A stretch of DNA of 64,000 nt. It comes from Chitinophaga sp. MM2321. Its GTDB lineage: Bacteria > Bacteroidota > Bacteroidia > Chitinophagales > Chitinophagaceae. The DNA lies in contig NZ_OZ035533.1 of assembly GCF_964033635.1 (NCBI RefSeq), forward strand, positions 6,714,473-6,778,472. The letters run 5' to 3'. Shown piece after piece: positions 31 through 4,634 of this stretch. The translations under genes were made by a program, and so were the position numbers. The notes under the pieces are model-generated. The model was not told the DNA's origin. It saw only the letters and a program-made list of their open reading frames with translations, and searched no databases. The stretch's first letter is position 1. Every line of letters starts with the position of its first letter.

Positions 31-86
31 TTAATAATTCCTTAACACTGGAGTAATATAAAAGTAATATAGCGTTTTTTTCTTTG
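31..86 (+). promoter_or_regulatory. PHO-box-like array and promoter (copy 1)
   Basis: Four TTAACA-type hexamers start at 31 (TTAATA), 42 (TTAACA), 53 (GTAATA) and 64 (GTAATA), exactly 11 bp apart. After a 9-bp gap comes TTTCTTTG (79-86), one mismatch from the Bacteroidota -10 consensus TAnnTTTG. The same geometry recurs before the next three genes. An 11-bp direct-repeat period just upstream of the -10 is typical of PhoB/PhoP-type response regulators. That PhoB is the regulator here is inference. Confidence 0.75.
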
Positions 87-144
87 CATTGAAAATTTGG
101 ATCATAGACAGGAGCCTACAGCCTGTACATACTTAGCTAATTTG

Positions 145-975
145 ATGTCCGATAAACGCCCATTAGATATTGTCGTTATTTCCGATGTACATCTCGGGAT
201 TTATGGTTGTCATGCCAAAGAACTTATCCAGTACCTGGATAGCATAGATCCCCGGATCATGGTGCTGAACGGGGATATTATCGACATCTGGCAGTTCAGT
301 AAACGGTATTTCCCCAAGTCACATACCAAGGTGATCAGGAAGATCCTGAAAATGATCGGCAAGGGAACCGAAGTGTACTATCTCACCGGTAACCACGATG
401 AAGCCCTGCGTAAGTACGCCGGTTTCGAGCTGAGTAACTTTACCATCGACAACAAGCTGGTGCTGGAAGTAGATGGCAAACGGCACTGGTTCTTTCATGG
501 CGACGTATACGATGTGACCATGAAAAACTCCAAATGGCTCGCGAAGCTGGGGGGTAAAGGCTATGATCTGCTGATTATCCTCAACCGCCTGGTAAATAAT
601 GTGTTGGAAAGCATGGGGAGGGAAAAGATGTCTTTCTCCAAAAAAGTAAAGCAGGGAGTAAAATCTGCGGTGAAATTTATCTCCGATTTTGAACAAACCG
701 TGGCTGAAATAGCGGCAGACAAAGCGTTTGACGTGGTTTGCTGCGGACATATCCACCAGCCGCTGATCAAAGAAATGAAGGTGGGCGACAAAACAGTCAC
801 CTATCTTAATTCCGGCGATTGGGTGGAAAGTCTCACTTCACTGGAATATGCCAACCGGCAATGGTCCCTCTATCAACATCCTGTTACCAAAACAAAGATC
901 GTGTTACCCGAAGATGACGATGATGCTGCTCCCGGATGGGATGCCGCCAGGATTATTATATTCCCCGCTTCCTAG
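145..975 (+). CDS. Metallophosphoesterase, PlcP/LpxH-like (possible phospholipase C or UDP-diacylglucosamine diphosphatase)
   Basis: A 276-residue calcineurin-like phosphoesterase. The metal-binding blocks are all present: ISDVHLG, NGDIIDIW, GNHDE, FHGDVYD and CGHIHQP, followed by LNSGDWVES. The overall pattern, including GC after the first block, SH after the second and the CGHIH/GDWVES ending, resembles the PlcP phospholipase C family that strips phospholipid head groups under phosphate starvation. That family is usually annotated as UDP-2,3-diacylglucosamine diphosphatase. The frame is open back to a TTG at 97, but the predicted transcription start lies near 95, so the ATG at 145 (MSDKRP) is chosen. 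It is a stand-alone gene behind PHO-box-like array 1. The array supports the PlcP reading, but an LpxH-like lipid A role cannot be excluded. Confidence 0.8.
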   Translation: MSDKRPLDIVVISDVHLGIYGCHAKELIQYLDSIDPRIMVLNGDIIDIWQFSKRYFPKSHTKVIRKILKMIGKGTEVYYLTGNHDEALRKYAGFELSNFTIDNKLVLEVDGKRHWFFHGDVYDVTMKNSKWLAKLGGKGYDLLIILNRLVNNVLESMGREKMSFSKKVKQGVKSAVKFISDFEQTVAEIAADKAFDVVCCGHIHQPLIKEMKVGDKTVTYLNSGDWVESLTSLEYANRQWSLYQHPVTKTKIVLPEDDDDAAPGWDAARIIIFPAS

Positions 976-1031
976 TCTCTCTTATTATTTATATTTAAAT
1001 ATATTTTATATATTAATAATTTAATATTATT

Positions 1032-1087
1032 TTCACATAATCATAACAAGTGCTTAATATTAAATTAAAGGTAGACTGTTATGTTTG
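1032..1087 (+). promoter_or_regulatory. PHO-box-like array and promoter (copy 2)
   Basis: Hexamers start at 1032 (TTCACA), 1043 (ATAACA), 1054 (TTAATA) and 1065 (TTAAAG), each 11 bp from the next. A 9-bp gap leads to a perfect -10, TATGTTTG, at 1080-1087. Transcription should start near 1094. The first ATG of the open frame (1081) therefore lies inside the -10 box and cannot be the start codon if this promoter is used. Confidence 0.75.
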
Positions 1088-1146
1088 CCGGAATTATAAT
1101 GAAGTGTGGCGATATTGACACATTTGGACATGAAGAACAATACGCA

Positions 1147-1548
1147 ATGAAAGTACTGAAGTTACATCCGCTGATGACCATCTCCTTGCTACAAATGCAG
1201 CTCCAGCGTTTGTTATCCTGTAATGTGGCCGTATATGTACATCACTCCCTTGCCAATGCTTTTGATACTTTAAAAGAAGTTGGTTTTGAGGAAGATGACC
1301 TGGTAGAATTTCCGATAGATGAAACCCTGAGCGTACGGGCCTTTGAAGAAGAACTGGAAGAACGTTTTAATTTTTGCCTGGAACTGTGCAATAAGGACAA
1401 CAAACCCTTTTTGAACAAGAGCCAGCATTTATTCCAGCTATCTGCTGCTGCGCCGGATAAGAAAGAAGAACGTACTTTCCCGCTGGATATATCCCTTGAT
1501 ATACTGCTGAACAATAACCGGCAAACACCACCCTCCTTTTTGATGTAA
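1147..1548 (+). CDS. Hypothetical protein of a putative PHO-type regulon
   Basis: About 133 residues, no family recognised. No signal peptide is evident. The N-terminal half (KVLKLHPLMTISLLQMQLQ) is hydrophobic and helix-prone, the middle is acidic (VGFEEDDLVEF, EEELEERF), and the tail is polar and low in complexity. The frame is open from 1081, but the ATG at 1081 falls in the -10 element and the ATG at 1099 would leave about 5 bases of leader, so the ATG at 1147 is preferred. It sits alone between two genes with the same upstream array, so it probably responds to the same signal. Its role is unknown. A small cytoplasmic adaptor or regulatory protein is one guess. Confidence 0.55.
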   Translation: MKVLKLHPLMTISLLQMQLQRLLSCNVAVYVHHSLANAFDTLKEVGFEEDDLVEFPIDETLSVRAFEEELEERFNFCLELCNKDNKPFLNKSQHLFQLSAAAPDKKEERTFPLDISLDILLNNNRQTPPSFLM

Positions 1549-1634
1549 GGCTTATCATATATCGTATAGTCCGCACCGTTATTTTTTTTCGTGTGCCCCT
1601 TCCCGTTAACAATTCGATAAACATATCTTAACAT

Positions 1635-1690
1635 TTAACATGCTGGTAATACTGGCTTAACACTCCGTTAATCCACCAGAGATACTTTTG
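1635..1690 (+). promoter_or_regulatory. PHO-box-like array and promoter (copy 3)
   Basis: Hexamers start at 1635 (TTAACA), 1646 (GTAATA), 1657 (TTAACA) and 1668 (TTAATC), at 11-bp steps. A 9-bp gap leads to a perfect -10, TACTTTTG, at 1683-1690. A further TTAACA at 1628 is out of phase. This is the closest match to the repeated TTAACA motif of the four arrays and drives the TonB receptor gene. Confidence 0.8.
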
Positions 1691-1699
1691 CCAACGATA

Positions 1700-1738
1700 T
1701 TAAAACGGTATTAAAGCCGGATTAAAACAAAATTGAAA
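1700..1738 (+). promoter_or_regulatory. Second 11-bp TTAA array in the receptor leader
   Basis: Hexamers start at 1700 (TTAAAA), 1711 (TTAAAG), 1722 (TTAAAA) and 1733 (TTGAAA), again 11 bp apart, ending four bases before the GTG start. It lies downstream of the predicted transcription start and is out of phase with array 3, 32 bp from that array's last hexamer. It could be a second binding block for the same regulator or a chance AT-rich pattern. Confidence 0.45.
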
Positions 1739-1742
1739 TATC

Positions 1743-4565
1743 GTGAAAGGCATAACCGCTATCTCTGTACAAATCTGGATATTAACTGTATTTACCCTGA
1801 TCGCCAATGTTGCATTGGCCGGCGATCCTGCCAAGCTTACCGGCAAAGTAACGGATAAGAAAACAGGAGAAGCCCTGATCGGCGTTACCATTGTGGTACA
1901 AGGCACCGGCAAAGGCGCCGTAACAGATGTGGAAGGCCGGTATTCCATGATCGTTGAACCCGGAACTTACACCATCAATTTTAAATACATAGGCTACCAG
2001 ACAAAATCAGTTTCTGAAGTAGCTGTAAAGCCCACCGCACCTACACAGCTCAACATCATTATGGATGAACCCAAGTCTGAAGAGCTCCGCGAAGTAGTGA
2101 TCAGAGGTTCTTTCAAACAGGAAACCATCAATGCATTATATGCAGCACAGAAAAATAGTGCCGTCGTATCCGATGGTATCTCTGCTGATCTCATCAAAAA
2201 ATCGCCCGATAAAAATACCGGTGAAGTATTAAAACGCGTCAGCGGTACCAGCATCCAGGATAATAAATTTGTAGTGGTAAGAGGACTGGGAGACCGTTAC
2301 AACACCACGCTGATGAACAGCTCCGTACTACCCAGCACAGAACCTGATAAAAAAGCGTTTGCTTTCGACATCATCCCCGCTAACCTGATTGATAACATCA
2401 CGATCTACAAAACAGCTTCGCCTGATCTGCCTGGTGATTTCTCCGGTGGCGCCATCAAAGTAAGCACCAAAGATTTTCCTGATCAGCAATTCCTGGAATT
2501 AACACTGGGAACCGGTTATAATACACAAACAACGTTTAAAGATTTTTATTCCGGTCCGCCTAAAGGTAAGTTTGACTTCATAGGTTTTGATGATGGATCG
2601 CGTAAATTGCCTGCTGCATACAGCAATGTTAAAAACAATTATACCAATCTCGAAACAAGTCAGAAAATAGCGATCTCGAAAAATTTCTCCAATACCTATG
2701 GTGAAACCAAAGACGGACAAGCATTGCCACCACTGAGCGTACAACTCTCTATGGGCAACAGTTGGACGTTGAAGAACAACCGCAGGTTCGGATATATCTT
2801 CGCAGTGAATTATGGAAACAGTCAAACCCTGCGATTTAAGCAAAGAGATGCTTACCTGAATACAAAGGAACATACCTATTCCTACCACGATGAGATTTAT
2901 GGAAAAAACCGCAACCTCGGTAGTGTGCTCAACCTGGCATACACCTACGGTAAAAGCAAGTTGTCGTGGAAGAATTTTTACAACAACGATTTTAATGTAA
3001 ACTTCACGCGCAGGAATGGTTTCCAGTATGATGGCACCAACCTCACCACAGGTGTTTATAGTTTGAATAATGAAACCACCCAAAACGGATTATTTAATTC
3101 TGTATTGGAAGGGCAGCATCGATTGAAGTCTGAAAAGTTGCGCATTGACTGGAATGCCGCTTACGGACGTTCCTACAGAAATCAACCAGACCAGCGGATC
3201 CTGGCGTTTTTCCAGCGCAATCCTGACCAGCCTTTCTTCCTGCATCTTTCCAATGAAAATAGTCCGGCTGTAAACAGTGCAGGACGCGTCTTCTCAAATC
3301 TTAAAGAAAATATTTTCAGTGGTAACCTGAATTTTACGATGCCTTTCAAACTGTTAGGCGAATCACAACAATTTAAATTCGGAGGCGGAAAAGTTTACAG
3401 AGACAGGGATTTTTCTGTAGTGGCGCTTGGTTATGCCAGTAATGCCAATGGCGGAAGCGGTATAAATATTGACCTTGATAAAGACGTGAACCCCGGTAAT
3501 ATTTTCAGTAATGCCAACCTGGATAAATACAGCATCTTCCTCGCCAGGATTGATATGAATACGAAAGATTATGAAGGCATAGGCGATCTTAGCACCGGGT
3601 ACCTGATGCTGGATAACAGGCTTACCAATAACATCCGGCTGGTATGGGGAGCGAGAATAGAAAATTATCACCAGCAATTAAAAGCGGTTAATCAAAAAAC
3701 ACAGGATTACAACAATACAGATGTATTGCCATCTGCTAATCTGACGATAGGATTGAGCGAGCAAACCAACCTGCGTGCTTCCTTCTCCAAATCCGTGAAC
3801 AGAGCGGAGTTCCGGGAACTGGCCTCTTTCAGATATTATGACTACGAGAATGAATTTATTATCTCCGGTAATCCTGATCTGCAACGTAGCATCAATTCAA
3901 ATGCGGATCTGAAATTTGAATTTTTCCCGGGCGCCGGCGAGGTATTATCTGCTTCTTTGTTCTACAAGAAATTTAAAAATCCGATAGAGCAGGTTAACAA
4001 AGGAAACGATGTGCTGTCTTTCAGTAATGCAGATGCTGCAACAGATTTTGGTGGTGAAATTGAATTGAGAAAGAACCTCGGATTTATCAGTCAGCATCCA
4101 GTTTTCCAGGGACTAACTTTTTACACGAATGCTGCCCTGATCCATTCCTCTGTAGATCTGCAAGGTGTGAATAAAAAAACGCCGTTACAAGGGCAGTCGC
4201 CTTACCTGGTTAATGGTGGGCTCACCTATGCTTCGTCCAACAACGGCTTCTCTATGAATCTCCTGTATAACCGTATAGGACAGCGTTTGCGCTTCAGAGG
4301 TGAACAGGAAGGATTGGATACCTATGAGAAACCCCGTGATGTGGTGGATTTTCAGATCAGTAAAAAATTGTTTGGAAATGCGGGAGAACTGAAACTAAGC
4401 ATTGCTGATATTTTTGCGCAACCTGTTGCCTTGTATTACAAGTATCCCGGTAGTGATAAAACAGCTTACAATGCCGGTAATGATAAGGTCATCAATGCGA
4501 TGAAACCGGGAACTACTTTCTCTGTTTCCTTCCGGTATAATTTCATGCACCATTCCAGCAAATAA
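1743..4565 (+). CDS. TonB-dependent outer membrane receptor
   Basis: A 940-residue outer membrane transporter. A signal peptide (about 1-26, ending ANVALA) is followed by a carboxypeptidase-regulatory-like domain (about 30-112: LTGKVTDKKTGEALIGVTI, FKYIGYQ), a plug domain (about 115-250, with FVVVRGLGDRYN and GDFSGGAI) and a beta-barrel to the C-terminus. The start is a GTG; an in-frame stop lies three codons upstream, so no longer start is possible. The next gene is a surface lipoprotein with its own matching promoter, so the two probably form an outer-membrane uptake pair. The substrate is not shown by sequence. The shared PHO-like arrays suggest a phosphorus-containing compound. It is not a classic SusC, since no SusD-like gene follows. 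Confidence 0.9.
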   Translation: MKGITAISVQIWILTVFTLIANVALAGDPAKLTGKVTDKKTGEALIGVTIVVQGTGKGAVTDVEGRYSMIVEPGTYTINFKYIGYQTKSVSEVAVKPTAPTQLNIIMDEPKSEELREVVIRGSFKQETINALYAAQKNSAVVSDGISADLIKKSPDKNTGEVLKRVSGTSIQDNKFVVVRGLGDRYNTTLMNSSVLPSTEPDKKAFAFDIIPANLIDNITIYKTASPDLPGDFSGGAIKVSTKDFPDQQFLELTLGTGYNTQTTFKDFYSGPPKGKFDFIGFDDGSRKLPAAYSNVKNNYTNLETSQKIAISKNFSNTYGETKDGQALPPLSVQLSMGNSWTLKNNRRFGYIFAVNYGNSQTLRFKQRDAYLNTKEHTYSYHDEIYGKNRNLGSVLNLAYTYGKSKLSWKNFYNNDFNVNFTRRNGFQYDGTNLTTGVYSLNNETTQNGLFNSVLEGQHRLKSEKLRIDWNAAYGRSYRNQPDQRILAFFQRNPDQPFFLHLSNENSPAVNSAGRVFSNLKENIFSGNLNFTMPFKLLGESQQFKFGGGKVYRDRDFSVVALGYASNANGGSGINIDLDKDVNPGNIFSNANLDKYSIFLARIDMNTKDYEGIGDLSTGYLMLDNRLTNNIRLVWGARIENYHQQLKAVNQKTQDYNNTDVLPSANLTIGLSEQTNLRASFSKSVNRAEFRELASFRYYDYENEFIISGNPDLQRSINSNADLKFEFFPGAGEVLSASLFYKKFKNPIEQVNKGNDVLSFSNADAATDFGGEIELRKNLGFISQHPVFQGLTFYTNAALIHSSVDLQGVNKKTPLQGQSPYLVNGGLTYASSNNGFSMNLLYNRIGQRLRFRGEQEGLDTYEKPRDVVDFQISKKLFGNAGELKLSIADIFAQPVALYYKYPGSDKTAYNAGNDKVINAMKPGTTFSVSFRYNFMHHSSK

Positions 4566-4578
4566 TTACCACAGATAA

Positions 4579-4634
4579 ATAACAATTGCGTAACGCTCCG
4601 TTAAAGTTGGTTTAATATAGAAAACCAAATTTTG
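4579..4634 (+). promoter_or_regulatory. PHO-box-like array and promoter (copy 4)
   Basis: Hexamers start at 4579 (ATAACA), 4590 (GTAACG), 4601 (TTAAAG) and 4612 (TTAATA), 11 bp apart. The 9-bp gap leads to AAATTTTG (4627-4634), one mismatch from TAnnTTTG. The lipoprotein gene therefore has its own regulated promoter, not only read-through from the receptor gene. Confidence 0.75.

Follow-up and report, generated by a model that had tools for sequence, protein, structure and literature searches.

Introduction

In the classical phosphate (PHO) regulons the PHO box lies close upstream of the -10 region, and its half-site is CTGTCAT in Escherichia coli and of the TTAACA type in Bacillus. The box consists of two 11-nucleotide (nt) direct-repeat units that are bound head to tail, and Streptomyces operators vary in number (PMC4415409). 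In the present work, we describe four promoters of Chitinophaga sp. MM2321 (Bacteroidota, family Chitinophagaceae) in which repeated hexamers are arranged in arrays of the same 11-base pair (bp) period. They lie in a stretch of 64,000 nt (hereafter the window; G000:6714473-6778472), which forms the terminal part of the single-contig genome G000 of 6,778,472 bases, and they precede the genes for a PlcP-like phosphoesterase, a small protein (open reading frame 2, ORF2), a TonB-dependent receptor and a lipoprotein-like protein. These arrays are very probably PHO operators of Bacteroidota, which would be bound by PhoB in dimers and confer induction at low phosphate.

Several phosphate-responsive systems related to this one have been described. 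In Flavobacterium johnsoniae, phosphate depletion strongly induces the TonB receptor and lipoprotein of the phoBR operon, a second such pair, and PlcP (PMC8115612). A study of PlcP genes from marine Alphaproteobacteria and a flavobacterium, Dokdonia MED134, found plcP to be induced by phosphorus starvation in the strains tested; it also predicted Pho boxes in plcP clusters by computation, for which the accessible text gives no clade, sequence, repeat number or spacing (PMC4796936). PhoB of Bacteroides fragilis binds the pstC promoter in an electrophoretic mobility shift assay (EMSA) and controls the phosphate regulon (PMC3547664). For PhoP of Riemerella anatipestifer (RAYM_RS09740), an OmpR-family regulator, the motif obtained by DNA affinity purification sequencing (DAP-seq; 583 peaks) has TTTAACA as its most conserved part and is said to resemble the ArcA motif of E. 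coli; a 35-nt site that lies upstream of phoPR was used for EMSA (PMC9603813). Outside the phylum, Caulobacter crescentus responds to phosphate starvation by inducing the lipoprotein ElpS (CC0170), whose gene adjoins that of the TonB receptor CC0171 (PMC2996285). The open-access matches listed in our literature search included no Bacteroidota Pho-box consensus of the architecture described below.

Results

Architecture of the arrays in the window

The four promoters share one layout, in which four KTAAYA-type hexamers follow one another at exact 11-bp steps and are separated by 9 bp from a TAnnTTTG octamer (Table 1), the -7 consensus of Bacteroides (PMC4747536). A preliminary description of the window had reported this identical layout at 31-86, 1032-1087, 1635-1690 and 4579-4634, with two perfect and two single-mismatch -7 elements, and both statements were confirmed when the hexamers, steps and gaps were read again. 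Among the 16 hexamers, T at position 2 and A at position 4 are invariant (16/16 each), A occupies position 3 in 15/16, and C/T at position 5 and T/G at position 1 are each found in 14/16. In a leave-one-promoter-out scan based on the hexamers only, every array ranks between 1 and 5 among 127,920 window positions, and the top five places are otherwise filled by the other arrays or by array 2 shifted by 11 bp; array 2 may carry weaker additional half-sites upstream, at 1021 and 1010. A near-identical counterpart of array 1 precedes the PlcP-like orthologs at L278 and L279, which come from two further genomes of the genus, and the ORF2 homologs in L132 and L134 are also preceded by arrays. Further 11-bp repeats (TTAAAA, TTAAAG, TTAAAA, TTGAAA) occur on the plus strand in the leader 3' of promoter 3, at 1700..1738; in some relatives a second array is found upstream instead (L113, 5866; L119, 5233).

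Table 1. Arrays, -7 elements and genes of the promoter cluster, and the regulator genes of the same genome (window coordinates, except where G000 or L051 is named)
Feature	Position	Strand	Details
Array 1	31..69	+	Half-sites 31-36, 42-47, 53-58, 64-69: TTAATA TTAACA GTAATA GTAATA
-7 element, promoter 1	79..86	+	TTTCTTTG; one mismatch to TAnnTTTG
PlcP-like calcineurin-type phosphoesterase, 276 amino acids (aa)	145..975	+	ATG 145; PF00149 / PF12850
Array 2	1032..1070	+	Half-sites 1032, 1043, 1054, 1065: TTCACA ATAACA TTAATA TTAAAG
-7 element, promoter 2	1080..1087	+	TATGTTTG; perfect TAnnTTTG
ORF2, small protein	1147..1548	+	ATG 1147, by homolog starts
Array 3	1635..1673	+	Half-sites 1635, 1646, 1657, 1668: TTAACA GTAATA TTAACA TTAATC
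-7 element, promoter 3	1683..1690	+	TACTTTTG; perfect TAnnTTTG
TonB-dependent receptor with CarbopepD_reg_2 domain, 940 aa	1743..4565	+	PF13715, PF07715, PF00593
Array 4	4579..4617	+	Half-sites 4579, 4590, 4601, 4612: ATAACA GTAACG TTAAAG TTAATA
-7 element, promoter 4	4627..4634	+	AAATTTTG; one mismatch to TAnnTTTG
Lipoprotein-like protein, 455 aa	4657..6024	+	PF28492, from the protein database's precomputed domains; family absent from the Pfam version scanned
PhoB candidate	G000:5501582-5502265		Followed by PhoR-type kinase; Porin_O_P gene on other strand
PhoB/PhoR pair, own genome	L051 6583-7266 and 7384-8493		Counterpart of the Flavobacterium pair

Period and register in the promoters of orthologous genes

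A matrix built from the window arrays alone was applied to the promoters of orthologous genes, and periods of 6-18 bp were compared. For the receptor, 147 genomes of the family (the own genome included) were searched, and promoters were analysed for the 29 best matches among the 146 genomes besides the own; their mean best four-hexamer score is 25.2 at period 11 vs. 0.8-4.1 at all other periods, and a score of at least 24 is reached by 18/29 at period 11 and by none at any other. On the reverse complement the score is 8.4, in coding sequence it is near 0, and period-11 arrays precede TonB-receptor orthologs in other genera too. The promoters of the best 29 PlcP-like orthologs besides the own gene gave a comparable picture (20.4 at period 11 vs. 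0.3-2.7 at the other periods), 17/29 scoring at least 20. The distance between the PlcP-like gene and the receptor match is no more than 20 kb in 6/29 cases; in 20/29 the two are more than 90 kb apart or on different contigs, the receptor place not being listed for the remaining 3/29; because 20 of them sit far from the receptor, their arrays are not conserved by linkage. Hence the period of 11 bp given in the preliminary description stands, as it alone among periods 6-18 scores high in both sets of promoters.

The register of the repeats relative to the -7 element is also conserved. With the best TAnnTTTG-like octamer as the sole anchor (available in 29/29), the receptor promoters gave a positive mean hexamer score 15, 26, 37 and 48 bp upstream of it and nowhere else, and in the PlcP-like set anchored in the same way (28/29) the scores were lower, with the four highest again at 15, 26, 37 and 48 bp. 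Anchoring on the -7 element alone is noisy for the PlcP-like promoters (19/28 without an in-register copy) because their -7 elements are weak, and counts anchored on the arrays are therefore preferred. So anchored, 46 of the 53 arrays obtained from 58 promoters at a threshold of 2 are separated from the octamer by 9 bp, as are 44/53 at thresholds of 0 and 1. In 81 arrays, a scan for the trinucleotide TTG over the 17-31 bp preceding the -7 element gave no start from 21 to 27 bp, where a -33 element would be expected, and a start at 31 bp in 14/81. The arrays are hence, in the manner of PHO operators, direct repeats of the same orientation at 11-bp steps, which occupy a fixed position upstream of the -7 element in place of the -33 element.

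Number of half-sites

The number of half-sites was counted in a sample of 86 promoters (58 from the gene-first sets, 24 found score-first and the 4 of the window), 81 of which could be anchored; the PlcP-like promoters L284, L302, L304 and L306 and the receptor promoter L059 (which has one 10-bp step) fell below the counting cut. At a hexamer score above 2, the 81 arrays comprise 56 with four copies, 3 with five, 22 with six and none with seven, and at a threshold of 0 the corresponding numbers are 53, 4, 23 and 1. Copies five and six co-occur (Fisher p 1.7e-11, for species that are related), although six promoters counted as four-copy have a good sixth position and no fifth, and the counting method did not disfavour a fifth copy. 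The counts start at four copies, so that arrays of two or three are invisible to them, and the 24 score-first promoters were selected with a four-copy matrix. The "double boxes" of the preliminary description hold for the commoner, four-copy form (56/81) and leave out the six-copy form (22/81). The consensus of the 77 arrays from outside the window is KTAAYA, often followed by TT and then by three loose positions.

Pattern scans of the own genome

The full pattern, consisting of DTAAYA(N5) four times at 11 bp, N10 and ANNTTTG, was searched with up to 3 mismatches, the reversed pattern serving as control. The 6.78-Mb own genome contains 5 matches, four of which are the window arrays, vs. 0 in the control. 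The fifth match (G000:5984448, L046) precedes the gene for a 148-aa protein, whose homolog in G006 (L133) also has an array. No Pfam family was found for either of these two proteins, and the 148-aa protein, which is array-bearing in two genomes of the genus, is a candidate member of the phosphate regulon.

The four hexamers without the -7 element are weakly selective at up to 3 mismatches, because they match 46 times vs. 24 in the control. At 0-1 mismatch, all hexamer-only matches fall in the window cluster except one at G000:6424747 on the minus strand; this strong four-copy array (G000:6424747-6424784, L043) was rejected, being reversed relative to the adjoining SusC/SusD pair and out of promoter register. 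Also rejected was 370998, where repeats stand upstream of an OmpA-family gene but no -7 element is in register. A two-copy pattern gave no useful signal in the own genome (61+53 matches vs. 47+49 in the control). At G000:195201-195925, inverted TTAAC-type sites occur four times about 236 bp apart, three of them identical, probably as part of a long tandem repeat.

Arrays in the family and in the phylum

The full pattern was further searched in 20 genomes of the family (including the own genome with its five matches), most of which were picked for a receptor match and few contigs. It yielded 62 matches vs. 4 in the control, with at least one match in 20/20 genomes, some promoters giving two overlapping matches. 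The downstream gene is a homolog of a window gene in 38/62 (17 TonB receptors, 12 PlcP-like proteins, 6 lipoproteins and 3 ORF2) and the 148-aa protein in 2. The rest consist of one other SusC-type receptor, 16 genes outside the reference set and five matches without a gene within 450 bp. Nine of the 16 precede large outer-membrane barrels, which correspond to seven genes of 1,052-1,115 aa (L115, L123, L132, L135, L136, L139 and L150), and PF25183 together with a CarboxypepD_reg domain was found in all five of these seven that were scanned. The other seven of the 16 include a trehalose-phosphate synthase, a DUF218 protein and proteins without a family. Secreted-looking proteins of 404-408 aa without a Pfam match have an array upstream in two genomes of one genus (L143:4811-6025 and L148:4460-5686).

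In a phylum sample of 158 genomes of at least 90% completeness (own included), searched at up to 2 mismatches, 47 matches were found in 27 genomes vs. 2 in the control. One family of another class (f14) has matches in 10/13 genomes, some of them with zero mismatches. Twenty-eight loci were fetched for the 47 matches: the arrays in 20 of these precede 11 receptor homologs, 3 lipoproteins (from two promoters), 2 OprP, 1 PlcP-like and 3 PstS-type (PF12849) genes, and those in the other 8 precede other things. Three of the five matches in G158 (C1:1717342-1717452) are false, because they fall in a tandem repeat of 11 bp (ATAACAACCCA) that looks like the array.

The Flavobacteriaceae were represented by ten genomes (nine of Flavobacterium, F. 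johnsoniae itself not among them, and one metagenome-assembled genome), in which the full pattern has 17 matches vs. 4 in the control. The downstream gene was read for 12/17 and comprises seven porin (OprP) homologs, two DUF47 genes, one lipoprotein and two others, so that 10/17 matches precede OprP, DUF47 or lipoprotein genes. The seven OprP genes are 23-26% identical to the porin of the own genome, and PF07396 is present in both that were scanned; the arrays at DUF47 stand upstream of a DUF47-PitA pair in Flavobacterium. At L269, L270 and L272, the three phoBR loci read of five such loci fetched (the others being L271 and L276), arrays are present on both sides, facing the TonB receptor and OprP. 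In F. branchiophilum (L275) an array is found only on the OprP side, at the head of an operon for OprP, a PstS-type protein, two permeases, an ABC ATPase and PhoU (PstC, PstA and PstB being named here from gene position). Of 26 loci with lipoprotein homologs from seven Flavobacteriaceae genomes (one gene counted twice), 12 have three hexamers scoring at least 15 at period 11, and at most 5 do so at any other period tried. Arrays are hence found upstream of several types of phosphate-starvation genes, viz. PlcP-like, OprP, Pst-PhoU and DUF47-PitA.

Genes of the cluster and their neighbours

The domain assignments bore out the downstream genes named in the preliminary description, viz. a PlcP-like phosphoesterase, a family-less ORF2, a TonB receptor and a lipoprotein-like protein. 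The phosphoesterase scores below the LpxH equivalog cut-offs (e.g. 50.5 vs. 134 bits); its orthologs reach 83% identity, and a second match in the own genome (29%) is distinct. By its sequence, this enzyme is of the calcineurin type and distinct from LpxH, and the name PlcP-like is used for it on the family level. For ORF2, the listed start at 1081 falls within the -7 element, and ATG 1147 is favoured by the starts of its homologs from two further genomes of the genus; Pfam and NCBIfam scans at an E value of 0.001 gave no match. The TonB receptor scores 226 bits for TIGR01782, under the cut-off of 310. Homologs of the lipoprotein number 6,692 among 8,000 scored candidates, the closest ones coming from Chitinophaga, Filimonas and Niastella, and its Cys19 is invariant across 24 aligned sequences; a PDB sequence search at an E value of 0.001 gave no relative. 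Divergent from array 1, just outside the window, are a DUF47 (PhoU_div) gene and the gene for a PHO4-family phosphate permease, which form a DUF47-PitA pair.

Discussion

A candidate regulator and a model of the operator

The own genome encodes 11 regulators of the OmpR family, one of which is 56-57% identical to the regulator encoded beside the Flavobacterium arrays, the next reaching at most 37%. All three regulators aligned have the identical stretch RTIDVHIRK, which we place in the recognition helix. This PhoB homolog is the best candidate for the protein that binds the arrays. Upon phosphate starvation, the sensor kinase PhoR would phosphorylate PhoB, two dimers of which (at four KTAAYA half-sites, 11 bp apart on the coding strand) or three (at six half-sites) would bind head to tail on one face of the DNA. 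Since the last half-site ends 9 bp before TAnnTTTG, the array would stand where the -33 element is expected, and RNA polymerase would be recruited there by PhoB. The window cluster beside the DUF47-PitA importer would then constitute an island for phosphate scavenging and lipid remodelling.

The PHO-type regulon proposed in the preliminary description is supported, because the array precedes phosphate genes across the phylum and the window cluster adjoins DUF47-PitA. That description had also pointed to the genes behind the array as a check: elsewhere in the phylum these include PstS-type, OprP, PlcP-like and Pst-PhoU genes, and the same period, register and -7 spacing recur before PlcP-like genes, OprP beside phoBR, OprP-Pst-PhoU, DUF47-PitA and PstS-type genes, as judged from sequence comparison.

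Alternative explanations

A number of observations weigh against identifying the arrays as PHO operators. At the porin gene adjacent to phoBR in the own genome (L051), three TTAACC/G repeats with an 11-bp period (G000:5504992-5505018) are separated from TACTTTTG by 23 bp, not 9, and no match to PhoU (PF01895) was found in the own genome. Of the 62 family matches, 22 have no homolog of a window gene behind them and not the 148-aa protein either, and 131/158 phylum genomes are without a match at 2 mismatches. The Flavobacterium arrays are shorter, usually with three strong half-sites; a three-copy pattern has 19 matches vs. 6 in the control in five Flavobacteriaceae genomes, of which 9/19 are arrays already named and about half lie at unrelated places. 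Pattern matches per Flavobacterium genome are also far below the number of low-phosphate loci of F. johnsoniae, and two of the four groups of Flavobacteriaceae lipoprotein homologs (grouped by eye) are without an array. In addition, pstS is up 8-fold in a phoP mutant of Riemerella (PMC5399024), and because of this rise the TTTAACA motif alone does not name PhoB.

Some of these observations could also be accounted for if another regulator of the OmpR/PhoB family, e.g. an ArcA-like or envelope-stress regulator, bound the arrays and its regulon merely overlapped the phosphate genes. Such a regulator could be sought among the 11 OmpR-family members of the own genome, and the ArcA-like TTTAACA motif with its 583 peaks (PMC9603813), the behaviour of pstS in the Riemerella mutant (PMC5399024) and the porin of the own phoBR locus without the canonical register are in its favour. 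However, arrays flank phoBR in three Flavobacterium loci and precede OprP, Pst-PhoU, DUF47-PitA and PlcP-like genes. Phosphate is, to our knowledge, the sole common signal for these genes, and we regard the involvement of another regulator as improbable.

Explanations that dispense with a specific regulator fare poorly. The elements are A/T-rich and their spacing is near one helical turn, as would be expected of helically phased A/T-rich DNA that strengthens promoters through curvature or in the manner of an UP element. Their consensus is, however, not A-tract-like (C/T at position 5, T/G at position 1), their reverse complement scores 8.4 vs. 25.2, periods 10 and 12 are near background, copies five and six appear jointly, and the downstream genes are non-random, all of which makes phased DNA a very unlikely cause. 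Degenerate hexamers can also be found by eye in A/T-rich intergenic DNA, and the tandem repeat of G158 shows that false positives arise; a mere selection of look-alikes by chance is nevertheless scarcely credible in view of the 5 vs. 0 genome-wide matches, the leave-one-out ranks of 1-5 among 127,920 positions and two gene-first tests of 29 promoters each.

Length of the operator and its significance

The distribution of copy numbers suggests a further proposal, viz. that a single ancestral PHO operator is common to the Bacteroidota and is fixed at 9 bp from TAnnTTTG, and that its length, in this family at least, goes by whole PhoB dimers, with two or three dimer sites and almost never two and a half. 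We advance it tentatively, rating its chances a little short of even, because the species sampled are related, the counts start at four copies and were partly selected for them, and the Flavobacterium arrays have three copies. If it is true, the Bacteroidota RNA polymerase would be activated only by PhoB chains that are four or more subunits long, and promoter strength or the phosphate threshold would depend on whether there are four half-sites or six. A length counted in dimers raises the question of how PhoB activates promoters with the -7/-33 signals of Bacteroidota.

The arrays provide a testable definition of the PHO box (KTAAYA four or six times at 11 bp, 9 bp, TAnnTTTG) for a phylum that is abundant in soil, sea and gut. 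Phosphate regulons could thereby be read from sequence, and ORF2, the PF28492 lipoproteins and the PF25183 barrels could be assigned to phosphate acquisition.

Comparison with known systems

The kinds of target genes described here are those of the PHO regulon of F. johnsoniae (PUS clusters, the phoBR operon, FI-FIII lipoproteins and PlcP), the report of which uses neither "Pho box" nor "motif" in its main text (PMC8115612); the main text of the B. fragilis PhoRB paper likewise contains "consensus" and "binding site" 0 times (PMC3547664). A Bacteroidota box may be among the Pho boxes predicted in marine plcP clusters (PMC4796936). The Caulobacter pair resembles the window pair in gene arrangement, and its receptor CC0171 is expressed alike in rich and poor media (PMC2996285). 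Among the open-access matches listed, the nearest published motif is that of Riemerella PhoP, which shares the phylum and the TTTAACA core and for which the accessible text gives no tandem period, copy number or register to a -7 element; the likeness is one of motif text.

The arrays resemble the PHO box of PhoB/PhoP in E. coli, B. subtilis and Streptomyces in consisting of 11-nt direct-repeat units before phosphate genes. They differ from the E. coli box (CTGTCAT) in their KTAAYA half-site, to which the TTAACA type of Bacillus is close. In kind, such an operator is already known, and what seems to be new here is the definition of a PHO box for Bacteroidota together with its four-or-six copy rule: unlike in the classical PHO box, four or six units prevail, and a gap of 9 bp separates them from the TAnnTTTG of Bacteroidota.

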